Source: Dyella sp. ASV24 (GTDB lineage Bacteria; Pseudomonadota; Gammaproteobacteria; Xanthomonadales; Rhodanobacteraceae). Taken from it: 39,024 nt of DNA. This document shows, piece by piece, positions 1,774 through 27,673 of this stretch; position 1 is the stretch's first letter; every line of letters begins with the position of its first letter. The stretch lies in contig NZ_JAELTQ010000031.1 of NCBI RefSeq assembly GCF_016428905.1, positions 1-39,024 on the forward strand, read 5' to 3'. The notes under the pieces are model-generated. The model did no database searches. It saw only the letters and a list, made by a program, of their open reading frames with translations, and was not told where the DNA came from. A program made the position numbers and the translations under genes.

Positions 1774-2241
1774 ATGACCCGACGTATCGTTGCCCGCCGT
1801 TCCCCCATCCATGGCAATGGCGTGTTCGCCGTTACCCCGATCAAGAAAGGTGAGGAAATCATCGAGTACAAGGGCACGTTGACGTCGCATGAGGAAGCCG
1901 ACGAGATGTACGGCGACGGCGGCGAGACCGGGCATACGTTCCTGTTTACGCTCAACGACGATTACTTGATCGACGCCAATCGCAAGGGCAACACGGCGCG
2001 CTGGATCAACCACAGCTGCGATCCGAACTGCCAGGCGGTGATCGAGGAAAGCGCCAACGGTAATCCTCGTAAGGATCGTGTGCTGATCGAAGCCATCCGC
2101 AACATCAAGCCCGGCGAAGAGCTGACCTACGATTACGGCATCACGCTGGACATGCCGCACACCGCGCGCCTGAAAAAGCTGTGGAAGTGCCTGTGCGGGT
2201 CGAAGAACTGCACGGGCACGTTGTTGAAGGCCAAGCGCTAA
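1774..2241 (+). CDS. SET-domain protein-lysine methyltransferase with post-SET motif
   Basis: About 155 aa, almost entirely a compact SET domain. Visible motifs: the N-terminal IHGNGVFA segment, the SAM-binding and pseudoknot motif RWINHSCDPNC, the catalytic-tyrosine motif GEELTYDYG, and a C-terminal post-SET cysteine cluster CLCGSKNCTG that pairs with the NHSC cysteine to bind zinc in eukaryotic family members. It should transfer methyl groups from SAM to protein lysines; the substrate is unknown. I chose ATG 1774 because family members usually begin just before the RRI-ARRS segment. ATG 1765 is possible and the frame stays open to 1603, but no convincing Shine-Dalgarno decides it. The gene stands alone, convergent with the Gre-like gene. 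Confidence 0.85.
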   Translation: MTRRIVARRSPIHGNGVFAVTPIKKGEEIIEYKGTLTSHEEADEMYGDGGETGHTFLFTLNDDYLIDANRKGNTARWINHSCDPNCQAVIEESANGNPRKDRVLIEAIRNIKPGEELTYDYGITLDMPHTARLKKLWKCLCGSKNCTGTLLKAKR

Positions 2242-2261
2242 GGCGTATCGCCGTTCGCCAT

Positions 2262-2287
2262 GTAGGAGCGCACGAGTGCGCTCCTAC
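2262..2287. repeat. REP-like palindrome / bidirectional terminator
   Basis: Perfect inverted repeat with 12-bp arms GTAGGAGCGCAC and GTGCGCTCCTAC around a 2-nt centre. It starts with the GTAG core seen in many REP elements of pseudomonads and xanthomonads. It sits between the convergent SET and Gre-like genes, where it could also end transcription in both directions, although no T-run follows. It is the only copy I noticed in this window. Confidence 0.7.
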
Positions 2288-2316
2288 CGATGCCGCATCA
2301 CGCGTCGCTGCGTTCG

Positions 2317-2820
2317 TCAGGCATCGTCGGGATACTCGATCCCGACCACCTCGACATTGATATCCCCTGCTGGCCTTTGCCAAACCACCTCGTCGCCCAT
2401 GCGCGCGCCGAGCAAGGCTTTGGCGACGGGCGAGACATAGCTGACCAACCCGTGTTCCACATCCGCTTCGTCCTCGCCGACGATGCGGTAGCGCGCGTGT
2501 CCTTCGTCGCTGTCAACGGTCACCAGCGCACCGAAGGCCACACGGTCTCGCGGTTGCTGCGCGGGGTCCACTTCAATGGCGCTGCCCACGCGCGCGTTGA
2601 TCCATTTGAGCTCACGCTCCACCTCGGCCAGTTCGCGTTGCTGCAGCAAGGTGTCCGTTGCCGTGCGCAACGCATCGCGTCGCTCCCGTAGTGCAACCAG
2701 CCGCTCTCGCAGTTGCGCGATACCGCGTGGCGTCACGTAGTTGGGGTGTTCGCTCAGCGGGATATCCGGCAGCCGTTCGCCGACGGATTCGTCCGCATCC
2801 TTCACGAAGGAGCGGCTCAT
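2317..2820 (-). CDS. GreA/GreB-family transcription factor with atypical coiled-coil tip
   Basis: A 167-aa protein with the Gre layout: a short N-terminal extension starting MSRSFVKDAD, an antiparallel coiled coil (about residues 28-80, from NYVTPRGIAQL), and a C-terminal FKBP-like domain (from about residue 85, including SYVSPVAKALLGARMGDEVV). ATG 2820 has a strong GGAGGT site 6 nt upstream. Canonical GreA/GreB bind the RNA polymerase secondary channel and use tip acidic residues in the GDLSENAEY segment to stimulate cleavage of backtracked RNA. Here that segment reads roughly LLQQRELAEVE, so the GD-SEN signature is absent. It probably still binds the secondary channel, but transcript cleavage activity is doubtful. 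It belongs to the short GreAB-like subfamily found beside true GreA and GreB in many proteobacteria. Confidence 0.85.
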   Translation of the reverse strand: MSRSFVKDADESVGERLPDIPLSEHPNYVTPRGIAQLRERLVALRERRDALRTATDTLLQQRELAEVERELKWINARVGSAIEVDPAQQPRDRVAFGALVTVDSDEGHARYRIVGEDEADVEHGLVSYVSPVAKALLGARMGDEVVWQRPAGDINVEVVGIEYPDDA

Positions 2821-2910
2821 CGCTTACCTCCAGCGCGCCGTCGTTTCGGCGCGTCTACCTAGATGCACATGGCGGCGTGTCTGCCGCGCCTCAAGCGGGT
2901 ACAGGCGCAC

Positions 2911-2932
2911 GGGTGCGACGCCGGTCGCACCC
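2911..2932 (-). terminator. Hairpin downstream of the EF-G2-like gene
   Basis: Perfect 9-bp stem GGGTGCGAC / GTCGCACCC with a 4-nt loop, 23 bp past the stop codon of the EF-G2-like gene. It lacks a clear U-tract, so intrinsic termination is plausible but not certain. Confidence 0.5.
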
Positions 2933-2955
2933 ATTCAGGCGATGAACGAACCGGT

Positions 2956-4995
2956 TCAGTCGTCGTCGACGTGAGGCTTCCATGCTTCGCTGAGTTGCTT
3001 CTGCACCGGTGCAGGCACCGGCTCGTAGTGGCTCAGGTCCAGGCTGTAGCGGCCGCGTCCACCGGTCATTGCCTTGAGCTCGGTGGGGTAGTCGGTCAAC
3101 TCCGCCAGCGGGGCCTGTGCTTTGATGACGATCTCGCCGCCACGCAGGGAGTCAGTGCCCATGATGCGCGCGCGTTTGCCCGCCAGTCCGCCGGTGACGT
3201 CGCCCACGTTGGCCTCGGGTATGGCGACTTCTACATCGACAATGGGCTCCAGCACGACCGGCCTGGCCTTTCCTACGGCGTCGAGAAAAGCTTTCTTGCC
3301 TGCACTGATGAAGGCGACTTCCTTGGAGTCGACGGGGTGGTATTTGCCGTCGTAAACGGTGACGCGTACGTCCTGAATCGGATAGCCGGCAACGGCGCCC
3401 GCTTCCAAGGCCTGCCGCACGCCTTTCTCGATAGCCGGCAGGAACTGGCCGGGAATGACACCGCCTTTGACAGCGTCGACAAACTCGAAGCCCGTGCCGC
3501 GATCCAGTGGCTCCACCCGCAGGAAAACCTCGCCGAACTGACCCGCGCCGCCCGTCTGCTTTTTGTGGCGATGATGGCCTTCCGCACGGCCCGCGATGGT
3601 TTCTCGATAAGCGATGCGTGGCGGGTGCGTGGTTACTTCAACGCTGTAACGGTCCTTCATGCGTTCAAGCATGATTTTCAGATGGAGGTCGGACAGTCCG
3701 CGCACCACGGTCTCGTTGAGCTCCTTGTGGTGCTCCAGGCGGAAGCAGGGGTCTTCCTCTGCCAGTCGACCGATAGCCTGCGAGAGTTTCTGTTCTTGTC
3801 CCTTGTGCTTGGGTTCCAGCGCCAGGCCAAACATGGGTTGTGGGAAGCGCACCGGTGCCAGGTGAATGCGATCCTCGTCGTGTGAATCGTGCAGCACGGC
3901 ATCAAAGTGGATCTCTTCCACTTTCGCGACCGCGGCGATATCACCGGGAATGGCCTGGTCGATTTCTTCGTGCGCCTTGCCGCGCAATCGGAACAGATGT
4001 CCCACCTTGAAAGGCTTCTTGCTGTCATCGATAAACAACTGCGTGTCGCGGCGCACGGTGCCCTGCCATACGCGGAACACGCCGAGCTTGCCCACGAATG
4101 GATCGTTGACGATCTTGAACACGTCCGCGATGACGTGCTGCGACGGATCGGCGTTGACGGTGATCTCTTCGCCATCGCCATTGAGGAACGGGGGCGGGTT
4201 ACCTTCCGCGGGATTGGGCAGCAAGCGGTCAGCCAGCTCCAGGAATTCTTTGATACCCGCGCCGGTGCGCGCACTCACGAAGCAGATGGGGACGAGATGG
4301 CCTTCGCGCAGGCACTGCTCGAAAGCGTCGTGCAGCTCCTGCGGGCTCAGTTCTCCTTCGCCGGAGTCGAGGTAGTGACCCATCACGGTTTCGTTGATCT
4401 CCACCACCTGGTCGAGAATGCGTTGGTGTGCTTCGGTCAACGACGAGATATCGGTGGTGCCTTCGCTATGGAAGAAGCAGTCGAGCACCTGCTTTCCACC
4501 ATCGGCGGGGAGATTCACCGGCAGGCATTGCGTGCCGAATTCCTCGCGCAGCGCGTCCACCAATCCGGCCAGTCGCGCGCCTTCGGTATCGATCTTGTTG
4601 ATCACCAGCACGCGCGCGAGCTTGCGTTCGGCTGCGCGCTCCATCATGCGACGCGTGCCGTACTCAATGCCGTTGGCGGCATTGATCACAATGGCCACGG
4701 TCTCCACGGCAGCAAAGGCGGATAACGTGGGGCCGCGGAAATCGGCGTAACCGGCAGTGTCGATCAGGTTGATGTGGCTCTTGCCGAACGGAATGCTGGC
4801 GATAGCCGTGTCAATCGAGTGGCCGCGCGTCTTCTCCTGTTCGTCGGTATCGGACTGGGTCGAGCCGCGCTCTACTGAACCCTGGTTCTGGATGACGCCG
4901 CCCGTGTGCAGCAGTGCTTCGAACAGCGTGGTCTTGCCGACGCCGGCATGTCCGGCGAGTGCGATGTTGCGGATGTTTTCCGTGTTGTACGACAC
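2956..4995 (-). CDS. EF-G2-type (elongation factor G-like) translation GTPase
   Basis: 679 aa from GTG 4995, chosen because GGGAGG lies about 8 nt upstream; the frame stays open to 5091 but the extra residues look non-native. GTPase motifs: P-loop GHAGVGKTT (residues 15-23), switch I RGHSID, G3 DTAGYADF, G4 NKID. Domain IV carries HKKQTGGAGQFG and the C-terminal domain V is present, so all EF-G domains are there. The G3 histidine that EF-G uses for GTP hydrolysis (DTPGH) is tyrosine here (Tyr83), as in the EF-G2/FusA2 subgroup. A mycobacterial member of that subgroup was reported to bind nucleotide but lack ribosome-stimulated GTPase activity. It is unlikely to be the housekeeping fusA, which normally sits with rpsL-rpsG-tufA. 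No neighbour hints at its role. Confidence 0.88.
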   Translation of the reverse strand: MSYNTENIRNIALAGHAGVGKTTLFEALLHTGGVIQNQGSVERGSTQSDTDEQEKTRGHSIDTAIASIPFGKSHINLIDTAGYADFRGPTLSAFAAVETVAIVINAANGIEYGTRRMMERAAERKLARVLVINKIDTEGARLAGLVDALREEFGTQCLPVNLPADGGKQVLDCFFHSEGTTDISSLTEAHQRILDQVVEINETVMGHYLDSGEGELSPQELHDAFEQCLREGHLVPICFVSARTGAGIKEFLELADRLLPNPAEGNPPPFLNGDGEEITVNADPSQHVIADVFKIVNDPFVGKLGVFRVWQGTVRRDTQLFIDDSKKPFKVGHLFRLRGKAHEEIDQAIPGDIAAVAKVEEIHFDAVLHDSHDEDRIHLAPVRFPQPMFGLALEPKHKGQEQKLSQAIGRLAEEDPCFRLEHHKELNETVVRGLSDLHLKIMLERMKDRYSVEVTTHPPRIAYRETIAGRAEGHHRHKKQTGGAGQFGEVFLRVEPLDRGTGFEFVDAVKGGVIPGQFLPAIEKGVRQALEAGAVAGYPIQDVRVTVYDGKYHPVDSKEVAFISAGKKAFLDAVGKARPVVLEPIVDVEVAIPEANVGDVTGGLAGKRARIMGTDSLRGGEIVIKAQAPLAELTDYPTELKAMTGGRGRYSLDLSHYEPVPAPVQKQLSEAWKPHVDDD

Positions 4996-22917: not shown

Positions 22918-22930
22918 CACCGCACTTCTC

Positions 22931-23089
22931 CTTCTCCCCTCCGGGGAGAAGGCCGGGATGAGGGGCGGGTGCTTGCGAAAAGGTTTCAAAAGTGAGCTTT
23001 TGAGATTCCACGACTGAGACAAGCCCGACCCCTCACCCCAACCCTCTCTCCCACAGGGACTACCTTCGGGTCGCCCGAAGGGGAGAGGG
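22931..23089. mobile_element. MITE-like element, gene-less relative of the DUF559 element
   Basis: A 159-bp unit between fumA and lysAC. Its left end is a hairpin CTTCTCCCC / GGGGAGAAG, followed by GATGAGGGGCGGGTGCTTGC and TTTCAAAA. Its right end carries AAGCCCGACCCCTCACCCCA, then CCCTCTC...GAGAGGG enclosing an extra hairpin CCTTCGGG / CCCGAAGG. Both ends match, in the same order and orientation, the ends of the element at 25855-26305, but the nuclease gene between them is absent. A 7-bp hairpin TCAAAAG / CTTTTGA lies inside. No target-site duplication is visible. The element also occupies most of the 304-bp gap before lysAC, whose remaining 130 bp would hold the lysAC promoter. Confidence 0.65.
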
Positions 23090-23221: not shown

Positions 23222-25840
23222 GTGAACCCGCAAAGCCCCGCGTCGCTTCCTGCTGACGCATCCTGGATCGTGATGAAGTTTGGCGGCACCAGTGTCGCTA
23301 CCCTGCCGCGCTGGCAGAACATCCGTGAGCTCGTTGCCAGCCGCCGCGCCGAAGGCGCCCGCGTGCTGGTGGTCGTGTCCGCGCTCACCGGCATCACCGA
23401 CGCACTCAAACAAATGTGCGCGCAGGAAGACAAGGGCAAACGCATCGAGGCTGCCAAGGCGATCGCACAGCGTCATTACGACCTGCTCGATCACATGCAG
23501 CTGGCGGTTCCGGATACCCTCGGCGCTCGGCTCTCCGAGCTGGCGAAGCTGGCTGACGAAGGCCCGGCGCTGCTGGGCGAACTTGCCTGGTCGGCACTGG
23601 TGCAGGCGCACGGCGAGCTGATGTCCAGCGCGCTCGGCGCGGCGTTCCTCTCCCATAGCGGCTTGAGCACGCGGTGGGTGGACGCACGCGATTGCCTCTC
23701 GGCGATTGCGCTGCCCAACCAGAACGAGCGCACCAAGCTGCTCTCCGCCATGGTCGAGGCCAAACCGGATCCTGCACTGAACACACGCCTCGCCGCGCTG
23801 GGCGATGTCTTCATCACCCAAGGCTTCATCGCGCGCGAATCACAGGGGCGCACGGTCCTGCTCGGCCGTGGCGGTTCGGATACCTCGGCCTCGTACTTTG
23901 GTGCGTTGCTGAAGGCGCAGCGCGTGGAAATCTGGACCGACGTGGCGGGCATGTTCACCGCCAACCCGCGTCAGGTGCCCAGCGCCCGCCTGTTGCAGCG
24001 ATTGGATTACGAAGAAGCCCAGGAGATCGCTTCCACTGGCGCCAAGGTGCTGCATCCCCGCTGCCTCTCACCGCTGCGCGAGCCGCGCGTTCCATTGCTG
24101 ATCAAGGACACCAATCGGCCAGAGCTGGAAGGCACGCTGATCGGCCCGGAAGTGCGCGAGCATGCGCCCAGCGTCAAGGCGATCAGTGCGCGCAAGGGCA
24201 TCACGCTGGTGTCGATGGAATCGGTGGGCATGTGGCAACAGGTCGGCTTTCTCGCTGACGTGTTTGCGCAGTTCAAGCAACACGGCCTGTCGGTGGACAT
24301 GATCGGCTCCGCCGAAACCAATGTGACGGTGTCACTGGACCCCACCGAGAACCTGCTCGATTCCGATGCGCTGGCCGCGTTGGCTAGCGACCTGGCCAAG
24401 GTGTGTCGCGTGAAGGTCATCGCGCCGTGTGCGGCGATCACGCTGGTCGGTCGCGGCATGCGGTCGATGCTACATACGCTGTCCGCCGTGTTGGCTGAGT
24501 TCGGCCAGCTGCGTGTGCACATGATTTCGCAGTCGTCCAACAACCTCAATCTCACCTTTGTAGTGGATGAGAATGTAGTCGACGAGCTGCTGCCGCATTT
24601 GCACGAGTTGCTGATCACGGCGGGCGCGCTGCGTACCGACGACAGCGCCTTGTTCGGTCCAAGCTGGCAGGCGCTGTACGGCACCGGCGACGTATTGCCG
24701 CCCGCTGCGTCGTGGTGGCGCGAGGAGCGTCGCACCGATCTGCTCAAGATTGGCGCGGGCGCCACGCCGCGCTATGTCTACCACCTGCCTACGGTGCGCC
24801 AGCAGGCGCGTGAGCTGAAGACGCTGGCGGCAGTGGATCGCCTGCATTACGCGGTGAAGGCCAATACGCATCCGGCCATTCTCAAGGCGCTTGCGGAAGA
24901 AGGCTTCGGCTTCGAATGTGTGTCGCCGGGTGAACTGAAGGCTGTGATGGCCGTGGTGCCTGAGTCCGCGCCGCTGCTGTTCACGCCCAACTTCGCGCCG
25001 AAGGATGATTACGCGTGGGCGCTCACCACACGTGCCACGTTGTCGCTGGATTCGCTCTACCAGTTGGAGCAGTGGGGCGAGCTTTTCCGCGGCAAGGAAG
25101 TGGTGCTTCGCCTCGACCTCGGTCGTGGTCTGGGTCATCACGAGAAGGTGCGCACAGGCGGCAGTGGCAGCAAGTTCGGCCTGCCGGTGGAACAGCTCGA
25201 CGCGTTCCTGCGCCTAGCCGACACGCATGGCGTCACGGTGCGTGGCCTGCATGCGCACCTTGGCTCGGGCATCCTCGATGACGCCCATTGGGGCGAGGTC
25301 TACGGTCAGCTGGCCAGTCTGGCTGAGCGCATTGGCAGCGTGACGTTCCTGGATATCGGCGGTGGCCTTGGCGTGCCCTCGCATCCGGGCGAGGCGCGGC
25401 TCGATATCGCAGCGCTCGACAAGGTGCTGCGCGAGGTCAAGGCGGCTTATCCGCACTACAAGCTATGGATGGAGCCTGGCCGCTATCTGGTGGCCGATGC
25501 GGGCGTGCTGATCACCAAGGTCACCCAGACCAAGGGCAAGGGCAACGGACAGATCCGCTACCTCGGCGTGGATACGGGCATGAACAGCTTGATCCGCCCC
25601 GCGCTGTACGAGGCCTGGCACGAGATCGTGAACCTCACGCGCCTGGACGAGCCCGCCACTTCGCTATTCCAGGTGGTTGGCCCGATCTGTGAGAGCGGCG
25701 ACGTGCTGGGCACTGACCGGCGCTTGCCGGAGCCGCAGGAAGGCGATGTGGTGCTGGTGGCTCAAGCAGGCGCGTACGGCAAGGTGATGTCCTCGCCGTA
25801 CAACCTGCGGGATGAGGCGGAAGAGATCATCCTGGAGTAA
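23222..25840 (+). CDS. lysAC: Bifunctional aspartate kinase / diaminopimelate decarboxylase (LysC-LysA fusion)
   Basis: 872 aa from GTG 23222. The N-terminal half is an aspartokinase: KFGGTSV (19-25) at the ATP site, GRGGSDTSA in the middle, then ACT regulatory domains (about 310-460, SMESVGMWQQVGFLADVF and VHMISQSSNNLNL). The C-terminal half (about 490-872) is a group IV PLP decarboxylase: HYAVKANTH with Schiff-base Lys546, HLGSGI, the GGGLGVP phosphate loop, and CESGDVLG with the catalytic cysteine near the dimer interface. It thus joins the first step from aspartate and the last step to lysine in one chain. Both substrates of cell-wall synthesis (meso-DAP) and protein synthesis (lysine) depend on the pathway. 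The fusion is known in Xanthomonadales. The ACT domains suggest feedback inhibition by lysine or threonine. Confidence 0.95.
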   Translation: MNPQSPASLPADASWIVMKFGGTSVATLPRWQNIRELVASRRAEGARVLVVVSALTGITDALKQMCAQEDKGKRIEAAKAIAQRHYDLLDHMQLAVPDTLGARLSELAKLADEGPALLGELAWSALVQAHGELMSSALGAAFLSHSGLSTRWVDARDCLSAIALPNQNERTKLLSAMVEAKPDPALNTRLAALGDVFITQGFIARESQGRTVLLGRGGSDTSASYFGALLKAQRVEIWTDVAGMFTANPRQVPSARLLQRLDYEEAQEIASTGAKVLHPRCLSPLREPRVPLLIKDTNRPELEGTLIGPEVREHAPSVKAISARKGITLVSMESVGMWQQVGFLADVFAQFKQHGLSVDMIGSAETNVTVSLDPTENLLDSDALAALASDLAKVCRVKVIAPCAAITLVGRGMRSMLHTLSAVLAEFGQLRVHMISQSSNNLNLTFVVDENVVDELLPHLHELLITAGALRTDDSALFGPSWQALYGTGDVLPPAASWWREERRTDLLKIGAGATPRYVYHLPTVRQQARELKTLAAVDRLHYAVKANTHPAILKALAEEGFGFECVSPGELKAVMAVVPESAPLLFTPNFAPKDDYAWALTTRATLSLDSLYQLEQWGELFRGKEVVLRLDLGRGLGHHEKVRTGGSGSKFGLPVEQLDAFLRLADTHGVTVRGLHAHLGSGILDDAHWGEVYGQLASLAERIGSVTFLDIGGGLGVPSHPGEARLDIAALDKVLREVKAAYPHYKLWMEPGRYLVADAGVLITKVTQTKGKGNGQIRYLGVDTGMNSLIRPALYEAWHEIVNLTRLDEPATSLFQVVGPICESGDVLGTDRRLPEPQEGDVVLVAQAGAYGKVMSSPYNLRDEAEEIILE

Positions 25841-25854
25841 GCCTCGCTTTTCCT

Positions 25855-25890
25855 CCCTCTCCCCTCCGGGGAGAGGGTTGGGGTGAGGGG
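25855..25890 (+). repeat. Left terminal inverted repeat of the DUF559 element
   Basis: Hairpin of 10-bp arms with loop TCC, followed by TTGGGGTGAGGGG. It pairs with 26270-26305 in inverted orientation with two mismatches. As the first structure after the lysAC stop, the hairpin may also act as that gene's terminator. Confidence 0.75.
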
Positions 25891-25929
25891 TGGGTGCTCG
25901 CGAAAGCATTTCAAAATGGACGCTGCAGG

Positions 25930-26310
25930 ATGAAGCGTTTGAATGTCGACAGGGCTCGCGGTATGCGAGGCACCCAAACGGATGCGGAGCAATTGCTCTG
26001 GTATTACCTGCGCAACCGTCGCATGCAAGGCTGGAAATTCCGACGCCAGCACGAAATCAGTCGTTACATCGTCGATTTTGTCTGTCCGGACGCGGGCCTG
26101 ATCGTGGAGCTAGACGGCGGTCGGCATGGCGATCAGTTGATTTATGACGAGCGCCGTACTCTTGAGCTCCAAACGATGGGCTACAGAGTCCTGCGTTTCT
26201 GGAACAATGATGTACTGAAAAACGTGGAAGGCGTGCTTGAGGTGATCCTGGAGGTCTTGGCAAGCCCGGCCCCTCACCCCAGCCCTCTCCCCGAAGGGGA
26301 GAGGGAGTAG
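25930..26310 (+). CDS. DUF559 (Vsr/restriction-endonuclease-like fold) protein inside the element
   Basis: 126 aa from ATG 25930; a GTG at 25894 is in frame but lies at the edge of the inverted repeat. DUF559 hallmarks: RALR-type start (RARGMRGTQTDAEQLLWYYL), GWKFRRQHEISRYIVDFVC with Asp49, ELDGGRH (60-66) with Glu60, then YDERRTLELQTMGYRVLRFW and NNDVLKN. The D...E pattern is the one expected to bind metal in this PD-(D/E)XK-like family, so the nuclease residues look intact. The last 15 residues (SPAPHPSPLPEGERE) are encoded by the right terminal repeat itself. The family is common but without an established cellular role; here its setting points to a role in the element's own spread. Confidence 0.85.
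   Translation: MKRLNVDRARGMRGTQTDAEQLLWYYLRNRRMQGWKFRRQHEISRYIVDFVCPDAGLIVELDGGRHGDQLIYDERRTLELQTMGYRVLRFWNNDVLKNVEGVLEVILEVLASPAPHPSPLPEGERE
26270..26305 (-). repeat. Right terminal inverted repeat of the DUF559 element
   Basis: Mirror copy of the left repeat: CCCCTCACCCCA tail, then a hairpin with 10-bp arms and loop GAA. It overlaps the 3' end of the DUF559 gene and ends 12 bp before the murL ribosome site, so it could influence murL-murD2 transcription. Confidence 0.75.
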
Positions 26311-26329
26311 CGTCGACGGAGACTTGAGA

Positions 26330-27673
26330 GTGACCACCAACATCAACCCCCGCCTGACCCAGGTATTCCGCTTCGTGCGGTGCAGCTACGCCGACGGCGT
26401 GGCTGAGCTGGTCTACGCCTTCGACCACGGCGAGGAGCTGATCGAGCGCGTGCGTTTCCCGAACGCGCCCGCGCTGCCGGCCAACCATCAGGCCGCGTTC
26501 GATCAGGCGCTGAAGATGCTGCATCTCATCGCGGGCGTGAGCTACTACAAGGCCGGTGTGCCGCCGCGTATCGATGTGGTCGGCGGTCCGCTGGACGACG
26601 CCACGGCCAATCTGCTGGACGAGCTGTATCTGCATGGACTCGCTGAGTTTGCCTATCGCAACGGGCTGGACCTGCGCGGTCGTATCCAATTCCCTCGCGG
26701 CGGCGCCACGCAGCCGGAAGCGAAGGCGTTGGGTTTGCCGCACCGCACGCTGGTGCCGATTGGCGGCGGCAAGGATTCGCTGGTTGCGGTGGAAGCGATC
26801 AAGTCCATCGGCGGTGATGCGACGGCCGTGTGGGTTGGCAATTCGCCGCTGATCGCCGCCTGTGCCGAGCGCACCGGGCTGCCTCTGCTCAACATCCAGC
26901 GCGAACTCGCGCCGGGCCTGTTCGAGCTCAATCGCCTTGGCGCATGGAACGGCCATATCCCGGTGACGGCGGTCAATTCCGTCATCCTCGCGGTGGCGGC
27001 GATCCTTTACGGTTTCGATAGCATTGCTTTCGCCAACGAGCGTTCCGCGTCTGCCGCCACGCTGGAGTACGAAGGCCAGCAGGTGAATCACCAGTGGAGC
27101 AAGGGCTATAGCTTCGAGCAATTGCTCAGTGACTGGCTGCACCAGCACGTTGCCGCCGATCTTGATTACTGCTCCTTGCTGCGGCCGTTCTCCGAACTGG
27201 CCGTGACCCGCGCCTTTTCCAAGCTCACGCCGTACTTCGACGTGTTCTCCAGCTGCAACCGCAACTTCAAGATCCTGGGCCCCAAGCCGGCCGATCGCTG
27301 GTGCGGTCAGTGCCCGAAGTGCCACTTCGTGTTCCTGGCGCTGGCGCCGTTCCTGGCCAAGCCGCGACTGCTGTCGATTTTCGGCCGAAACCTGCTGGAC
27401 GACGAAAATCTCGCCCCGGGTTTCGATGCGTTGCTTGAGTATCAGGATCACAAGCCGTTCGAATGCGTAGGTGAGGGCGCCGAAGCGCGCGCTGCGATGT
27501 ATGCACTGAGCCAGCGTTCGGAATGGCAGGAAGACACCCTGGTGGCACGTTTCATTCGTGACATCCTGCCGCAACTCGACGTGAGCGAGCTCGCGCTGGA
27601 GCCATGGTTGGAGCCGTCCGCCGAACAACGCATTCCCAAGCGTCTGCAGCCGGCGCTGGCGTTCTTCGCGTGA
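26330..27673 (+). CDS. murL: UDP-N-acetyl-alpha-D-muramoyl-L-alanyl-L-glutamate epimerase
   Basis: 447 aa from GTG 26330, chosen because GGAG lies exactly 8 nt upstream (the in-frame TTG at 26324 is too close to it). It matches MurL: a PP-loop-like nucleotide motif GGGKDS (145-150), NERSASAATLEYEGQQVNHQ, and a cysteine cluster WC-x2-C-x2-CHF (Cys325, 328, 331). In Xanthomonas oryzae MurL converts the terminal L-Glu of UDP-MurNAc-L-Ala-L-Glu to D-Glu in an ATP-dependent reaction. This gives the normal peptidoglycan precursor without glutamate racemase (MurI). The partner ligase gene murD2 overlaps its stop by 4 bp (GTGA), so the two are translationally coupled. Confidence 0.93.
   Translation: MTTNINPRLTQVFRFVRCSYADGVAELVYAFDHGEELIERVRFPNAPALPANHQAAFDQALKMLHLIAGVSYYKAGVPPRIDVVGGPLDDATANLLDELYLHGLAEFAYRNGLDLRGRIQFPRGGATQPEAKALGLPHRTLVPIGGGKDSLVAVEAIKSIGGDATAVWVGNSPLIAACAERTGLPLLNIQRELAPGLFELNRLGAWNGHIPVTAVNSVILAVAAILYGFDSIAFANERSASAATLEYEGQQVNHQWSKGYSFEQLLSDWLHQHVAADLDYCSLLRPFSELAVTRAFSKLTPYFDVFSSCNRNFKILGPKPADRWCGQCPKCHFVFLALAPFLAKPRLLSIFGRNLLDDENLAPGFDALLEYQDHKPFECVGEGAEARAAMYALSQRSEWQEDTLVARFIRDILPQLDVSELALEPWLEPSAEQRIPKRLQPALAFFA

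Follow-up and report, generated by a model that had tools for sequence, protein, structure and literature searches.

A DUF559 nuclease gene between inverted boxC/PIT/TM repeats and its possible partnership with their scattered copies

A gene for a DUF559 protein, a PD-(D/E)XK/Vsr-like nuclease, lies between two inverted copies of a triplex-type repeat in the genome of Dyella sp. ASV24, and the pairing of DUF559 with inverted repeats occurs in other bacteria well beyond chance and with a specific geometry. The repeat is the one called TM, formerly boxC and PIT, and described as an intrastrand triplex motif (PMC4666352). Such repeats have been seen across many bacteria over decades with no origin assigned to them, and what is new here is the link with DUF559. 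Since the gene stands between inverted triplex-type repeats in many bacterial groups, its nuclease becomes a possible partner of the scattered repeats. As judged from genome sequences, a nuclease that mobilises or maintains the repeats is the best inference, and we hold it moderately probable that the arrangement TM -> duf559 <- TM represents a domesticated Vsr-like nuclease gene equipped with its own recognition elements, whose product would recognise TMs and spread or maintain them.

The unit in the Dyella window

The window is the whole stretch of DNA that was analysed, 39,024 nucleotides of contig NZ_JAELTQ010000031.1. Its left TM element (25853..25890, plus strand) is made of a pyrimidine-first hairpin at 25855-25877, followed by a purine third strand at about 25880-25890, toward the gene; as a genomic repeat it reaches from about 25844 to 25901, and its mirror symmetry, by eye, is 9/10. 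The right TM element is inverted (26270..26307, minus strand), with the hairpin at 26283-26305 outermost and the third strand also toward the gene. A previous sequence-only reading had described inverted repeats of 36 bp with 34/36 matches around the gene: the arms are real, but they measure 38 nt each, are 95% complementary and have 379 nt between them. It was right in seeing each of them as a hairpin, which consists of a 10-bp stem and a 3-nt loop. Taken singly, neither fold stands out from what its composition would give (z -1.46 and -1.86). By eye, a pyrimidine arm, a loop and a purine arm follow one another in each element, and a further run of purines mirrors the purine arm (GGGGAGAGGG / GGGGTGAGGGG), so that in sequence form we find both the pyrimidine-first hairpin and the mirror-symmetric purine third strand of the triplex motif.

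With the published boxC/PIT/TM repeats the window arms share the form CCCTCTCCC-loop-GGGAGAGGG-2/3 nt-GGGTGAGGG, as well as a high copy number and the sometime occurrence as inverted pairs; the E. coli TM motif is reported to fold as a triplex in vitro (PMC4666352). The unit had been thought possibly undescribed, which no longer holds for its repeats, already known as the boxC/PIT/TM triplex motif; their pairing with the nuclease is real and recurrent. To the repeat as published, the present data add its link with DUF559, third strands that face the gene, and the match in subtype. In the main text of PMC4666352 the words endonuclease, nuclease, DUF and ycjD do not occur, and the paper reports finding neither transposase or integrase remnants around TM sites nor a mobility gene near the repeat. 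Among the papers listed, judged by titles and the opening of abstracts, in a literature scope that leaves preprints and most subscription papers outside, no link between DUF559 and TM or REP elements was found.

The DUF559 gene (25930..26310, plus strand) is the sole gene between the arms, as had been noted, and matches PF04480 with an E-value of 7.3e-40. It encodes 126 aa from the ATG at 25930, a start that recurs across the genus and fits the D49/E60 numbering, or 138 aa from a possible GTG at 25894. The C-terminal codons run through the right TM (PHPSPLPEGERE), which had been credited with the last 15 residues of the protein and covers 12 whole C-terminal codons instead. The conserved locus is bounded on the left by the gene that the sequence-only reading named lysAC (23222..25840, plus strand) and on the right by its murL (26324..27673, plus strand). 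Upstream of lysAC, a lone TM-like hairpin with a tail (CCTTCTCCCC..GGGGAGAAGG; 22930..22952, plus strand) is a dispersed copy outside the unit. Two sub-threshold Rfam matches within 25700-26500 were taken as chance.

In its own 5.6-Mb genome the left element has 88 listed matches, a figure in which self, both arms and both strands are counted, and the genome contains 93 exact CCCTCTCCC-N2-8-GGGAGAGGG palindromes together with one DUF559 match and one Y1_Tnp match. Among named relatives, Rhodanobacter and Dyella are the nearest. The sole Y1_Tnp match (L010, G000:C111:22018-22341, G000 being the source genome) is bordered by inverted repeats (AACGGGGTCAGGTTCACTT) and by GACCCCGTTCTTTA repeats, which apparently constitute a separate REP-like system, unrelated to the TMs.

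Recurrence and geometry of the pairing

Two sets of loci were compared, which may have species in common. The class set takes one DUF559 locus from each of the first 60 genomes by E-value outside the own family, out of 115/377 genomes class-wide with any DUF559 hit, the weaker ones lying outside the 60 examined. The named set takes the best 80 loci among the matches listed, many of them metagenome bins, from which five with a flank below 150 bp were dropped to leave 75. Each locus was scored by the best ungapped inverted match between the 300 bp to the left and to the right of the DUF559 domain, with a threshold of 14; the window locus scores 32. In the class set, an inverted repeat of at least 14 flanks DUF559 at 43 of the 60 loci versus 21/5308 sham positions of the same loci, kinship being ignored and the sham windows overlapping and containing gene interiors, so that they are not independent. 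In the named set, 58 of the 75 loci reach the threshold versus 7/458 other genes of the same loci, a control free of gene interiors in which kinship is likewise ignored. The refuting case named in the sequence-only reading, repeats placed at random with respect to DUF559, fails against these figures. Moreover, GC-rich hairpins with a stem of at least 8 occur both left and right of the gene at 39/60 class loci versus 7/2031 sham positions. The score of 14 is not reached at 17/60 class loci and 17/75 named loci. By record title, the named loci that do reach it belong to Alpha-, Beta- and Gammaproteobacteria, Desulfobacterales, Rokubacteria, Binatia and Gastranaerophilales; single records of Chloroflexi, Nitrospinota, Aminicenantes and Dadabacteria stay below.

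The arrangement of the arms is equally specific. Pyrimidine-first hairpins are the ones nearest the gene on both sides at 101 of the 135 loci (60 + 75), versus 5/2790 sham positions. Because the hairpin is pyrimidine-first on both strands, the orientation of an arm is read from its third strand, which points toward the gene in 194 of 229 arms and outward in 27 (p 2e-32, kinship ignored); a mirror identity of at least 0.8 is found on the gene-facing side of 154/229 arms and on the outward side of 12/229. A right element is present at 116 loci, and in 83 of them the reading frame reaches or passes its hairpin, which gives the proteins PHPNPLPEGERE-like tails. The likeness to REP elements and their RAYT transposases, with an unrelated enzyme, which had been suggested from the window, is supported, and the pairing recurs in several phyla with a fixed geometry.

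The two arms of a locus also resemble each other more (0.62) than arms of different loci do (0.42; 103 loci). In the class set, similar proteins tend to have similar arms (Mantel r 0.47, n 46, 0/1000), a link that is weak in the named set (Mantel r 0.11, n 57, 85/1000); these comparisons omit the 32/135 loci that lacked a usable pair of arms.

Scattered copies and the enzyme family

A strong DUF559 match, defined by a best E-value below 1e-16, is present in 76/377 class genomes. At least ten TMs and strong DUF559 occur together in 31 of the 377, TMs only in 17, DUF559 only in 45 and neither in 284 (OR 11.5, p 3e-13, kinship ignored). For Y1_Tnp the corresponding counts are 40, 8, 220 and 109, a weaker co-occurrence (OR 2.5, p 0.02), and the association between TMs and DUF559 is present in both Y1_Tnp strata, with five Y1_Tnp-free genomes carrying at least ten TMs and strong DUF559. 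A RAYT as mover of the TMs was rejected in view of that weak co-occurrence and of the other repeats around the Y1_Tnp gene of the source genome. Strong DUF559 is missing from 17 of the 48 TM-rich class genomes, three of which also lack Y1_Tnp. These three (G183, G394 and G395, with 56, 14 and 15 TM palindromes, G394 having a weak DUF559 match) may be orphan TM populations or have another partner.

The scattered copies also follow the kind of arm. Among class units with an exact palindrome in their own arms, 24/31 have at least five further copies in the genome, the other seven staying below five, versus 5/25 among units whose arms are other hairpins (p 8e-6, kinship ignored); the remaining units of the 60 comprise two with a one-mismatch palindrome and two without such a hairpin. 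In the genus set (20 genomes, with 27 DUF559 matches compared out of 35 listed), the DUF559 genes form four clades at four loci. The A-type palindrome has 6-21 copies, own arms included, in exactly the 6/20 genomes with an A-locus DUF559 and 0-2 copies in the other 14 (p 2.6e-5, uncorrected for ancestry); the count of 15 in G523 includes a duplicated assembly end. This match was foretold for seven genomes before counting, and G144, which holds a decayed A-like remnant, has zero A-type copies. C-type palindromes (CCCTCCCC) peak in G524 (27) and G144 (17), with no C-type DUF559 found in either, while G013 has a C-type DUF559 and a single copy of the palindrome; for D-type DUF559, no dispersed set matches under the A pattern. 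The gene of the lysAC unit has been lost in four genus genomes, whose L-type copies number 7, 46, 3 and 39; the 16 genomes that keep a full-length frame have a median of 49 (p 0.026, kinship ignored). Two of these 16 frames hold one in-frame stop, and p becomes 0.054 if they too are taken as losses. A low L-type count thus accompanies the loss in two of the four genomes only (7 and 3, not 46 and 39). Altogether, the scattered TM copies of a genome partly tend toward the subtype that flanks its DUF559, the C-type paralogue being a misfit.

These counts bear on a very improbable explanation by hitchhiking, under which TMs gather at gene ends through roles in termination or mRNA stability, or by way of RAYTs, and DUF559 is there by accident. 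The 17/48 TM-rich genomes without strong DUF559, the C-type mismatch between palindromes and gene, and the terminator role proposed for the repeat in an Enterobacter genome paper (PMC2869309) would agree with it. Yet only 7/458 other genes at these loci are arranged in this way, the co-occurrence persists in the five genomes without Y1_Tnp, the only Y1_Tnp of the source genome has other repeats, and PIT elements are cited in PMC4666352 as lacking terminator activity.

As regards the enzyme, the window protein matches PF04480 above the cut-off and PF18741 below it, and has no Y1 (HUH) domain. D49, E60, D62 and H66 are conserved: E20, D49, E60, D62, H66, R76 and others are invariant among 56 DUF559 sequences including the window. 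Asp49 and Glu60, which had been proposed as apparent catalytic residues, are invariant in alignments of both 17 and 56 sequences. A profile search against the PDB returned 3hrl, of the same family, and then 3r3p, titled as a mobile intron protein (E 4.9e-4), which we take to be I-Bth0305I of the EDxHD class. Vsr itself (1cw0) came at E 0.91, among chance-level hits, and toxin B-subunit chains (E 0.66 and above) were also taken as chance. DUF559 is thus alike by profile to 3r3p and, at that E-value, to Vsr; it differs from them in that its unit is palindrome-flanked and vertically inherited, with no intron or intein seen.

The likeness to Vsr would also fit a nuclease that acts as a caretaker, in repair or in the removal of DNA structures, with TMs spreading by replication slippage or host repair and the gene-side TMs working as sensors or regulators of DUF559 expression. 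The YcjD profile is reported to detect Vsr (PMC1189080), and VsrA of Caulobacter, a DUF559 protein proposed to be Vsr-like, has been tied to DNA damage in methyltransferase-less cells (PMC12907096); TMs moreover vary from strain to strain, as published (PMC4666352) and at the E. coli loci below. We consider this role distinctly unlikely: it leaves the two inverted arms of fixed orientation and the amplification of the matching subtype unexplained, and lower TM numbers would be expected, yet 31 of the 48 TM-rich genomes hold strong DUF559.

Inheritance, dispersal and the loci of E. coli

Within the genus studied, the DUF559 gene is vertically inherited and under purifying selection. The unit or a remnant of it sits at lysAC-murL in 20/20 genus genomes, four of them with degraded copies, and DUF559 also occupies that position in genera g6, g17, g18, g22 and g26, as well as in records named Rhodanobacter and Dyella. 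Genera g1 and g22 also have units at other loci in common. The median dN/dS within the genus is 0.12 (90/91 pairs from 14 stop-free genes), and relatives are rare on mobile replicons (44/72,556 plasmid and 3/50,697 phage records at E 1e-5). The fixed locus, the low dN/dS and the rarity on plasmids and phages therefore indicate a settled chromosomal gene, the dispersed part being the TM element. The earlier idea of a unit moving as a whole is so far not supported: the locus is fixed in the genus and the same in those five further genera of the family, and the search for empty lysAC-murL junctions that it called for gave no clean one among the 20 genomes.

In the source genome, at least nine noncoding elements of 948-1069 bp end in inverted TMs oriented as in the unit (loci L004-L007 and L041-L044, e.g., L006 1508-2563). 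Their longest matches, among the matches listed, are 78-91% alike. With MITEs and insertion sequences that have terminal inverted repeats they share ends of one kind, here the same TM arms; they differ in that all nine lack both a target-site duplication and a DUF559 remnant inside.

The E. coli DUF559 protein is YcjD (b1289), whose gene lies between fabI and sapF. TM copy no. 9 of PMC4666352 (1,351,205-1,351,240) is 167 bp from it, and a degenerate TM is seen by eye at the ycjD 3' end, so that just one flank has a clear TM, a single one, and the flanks hold no inverted arm pair. At least 80% of the fabI-sapF ycjD region is held by 3362/5426 genomes. Four of the records in which ycjD is not fully covered were compared: a TetR-RND operon lies between fabI and sapF in three of them, and the fourth has its hit elsewhere in the genome. 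An exchange of ycjD and this operon, named eefRABCD, has been described at the site (PMC12817139), which together with the three records therefore points to allele replacement; fabI-sapF was accordingly rejected as an empty site, since the operon occupies the place of ycjD and TM. The two contents, ycjD with TM and the TetR-RND operon, are alternatives at one intergenic site (L251, L260, L261). At other TM loci, about 13 bp stand in place of the TM pair of hrpB-mrcB in UTI89 and in an O158 strain (by eye), one allele of alx-sstT resembles a deletion between CCCTCTCCC copies, and 186 bp of fepB-entC are missing in two strains, with one possible 3-nt TAA duplication (by eye). Tails point inward in 3/4 K-12 TM pairs and outward in 1/4.

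A rival reading is homing, with DUF559 as a free-standing Vsr-type homing endonuclease that would cut TM pairs without a gene. Repair would then copy the gene into the space between the TMs, gene-less pairs being the empty sites and TMs spreading otherwise. This is unlikely in our view, although the profile search placed 3r3p, titled a mobile intron protein, nearest among solved structures outside the family, and gene-less tail-inward pairs exist in the source genome and at three of the four E. coli pairs examined. No orthologous alternation of TM pair and gene was seen at the sole sites examined, lysAC-murL (20 genomes) and E. coli fabI-sapF, and the gene is confined to four loci within the genus. 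Besides, homing does not predict the subtype matching of dispersed TMs unless the homing enzyme also drives TM copying.

The favoured reading, a nuclease that spreads or maintains its own TMs, may work as follows. The Vsr-like nuclease would recognise TM hairpin or triplex DNA exposed as a single strand during replication or repair, and would nick or cut there. Repair would then, at a low rate, place copies of TM pairs in other intergenic sites, and gene-less pairs, such as the noncoding ~1-kb family of the source genome and the boxC pairs of E. coli, would be non-autonomous derivatives. This mode of action would resemble that of RAYT and REPIN, with both the enzyme and the repeat unrelated. 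The two systems are alike in having an enzyme gene flanked by inverted palindromes (TMs here, instead of REPs), in the dispersed gene-less copies of the flanking subtype, a likeness that fails for the C-type, the D-type and 7/31 class units, and in vertical inheritance and domestication, here within one bacterial family; RAYTs are described as single-copy and vertically inherited (PMC8049555). On the other hand, the window protein lacks the Y1 (HUH) domain PF01797, and the repeat here is a triplex-type element, the one Y1_Tnp gene of the source genome having other repeats; most REPs are reported to belong to GTAG/CGTC-tagged families (PMC3733652).

In the broadest form of this proposal, which we judge evenly balanced, boxC/PIT/TM repeats would be the ends of domesticated mobile units found across phyla, whose enzyme, DUF559 (YcjD in E. 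coli), would read hairpin or triplex DNA in a second, independently evolved REPIN-like system. If true, the uncharacterised DUF559 nucleases would gain a function, and REPIN-RAYT a convergent counterpart. With a candidate partner enzyme in laboratory E. coli, YcjD, the spread of TMs becomes directly testable.

As a separate observation, one locus (L268, about 1950-3380, G029:C3) contains three head-to-tail TM-DUF559-TM units with a period of about 501 bp, with no stops listed within the three domain matches.
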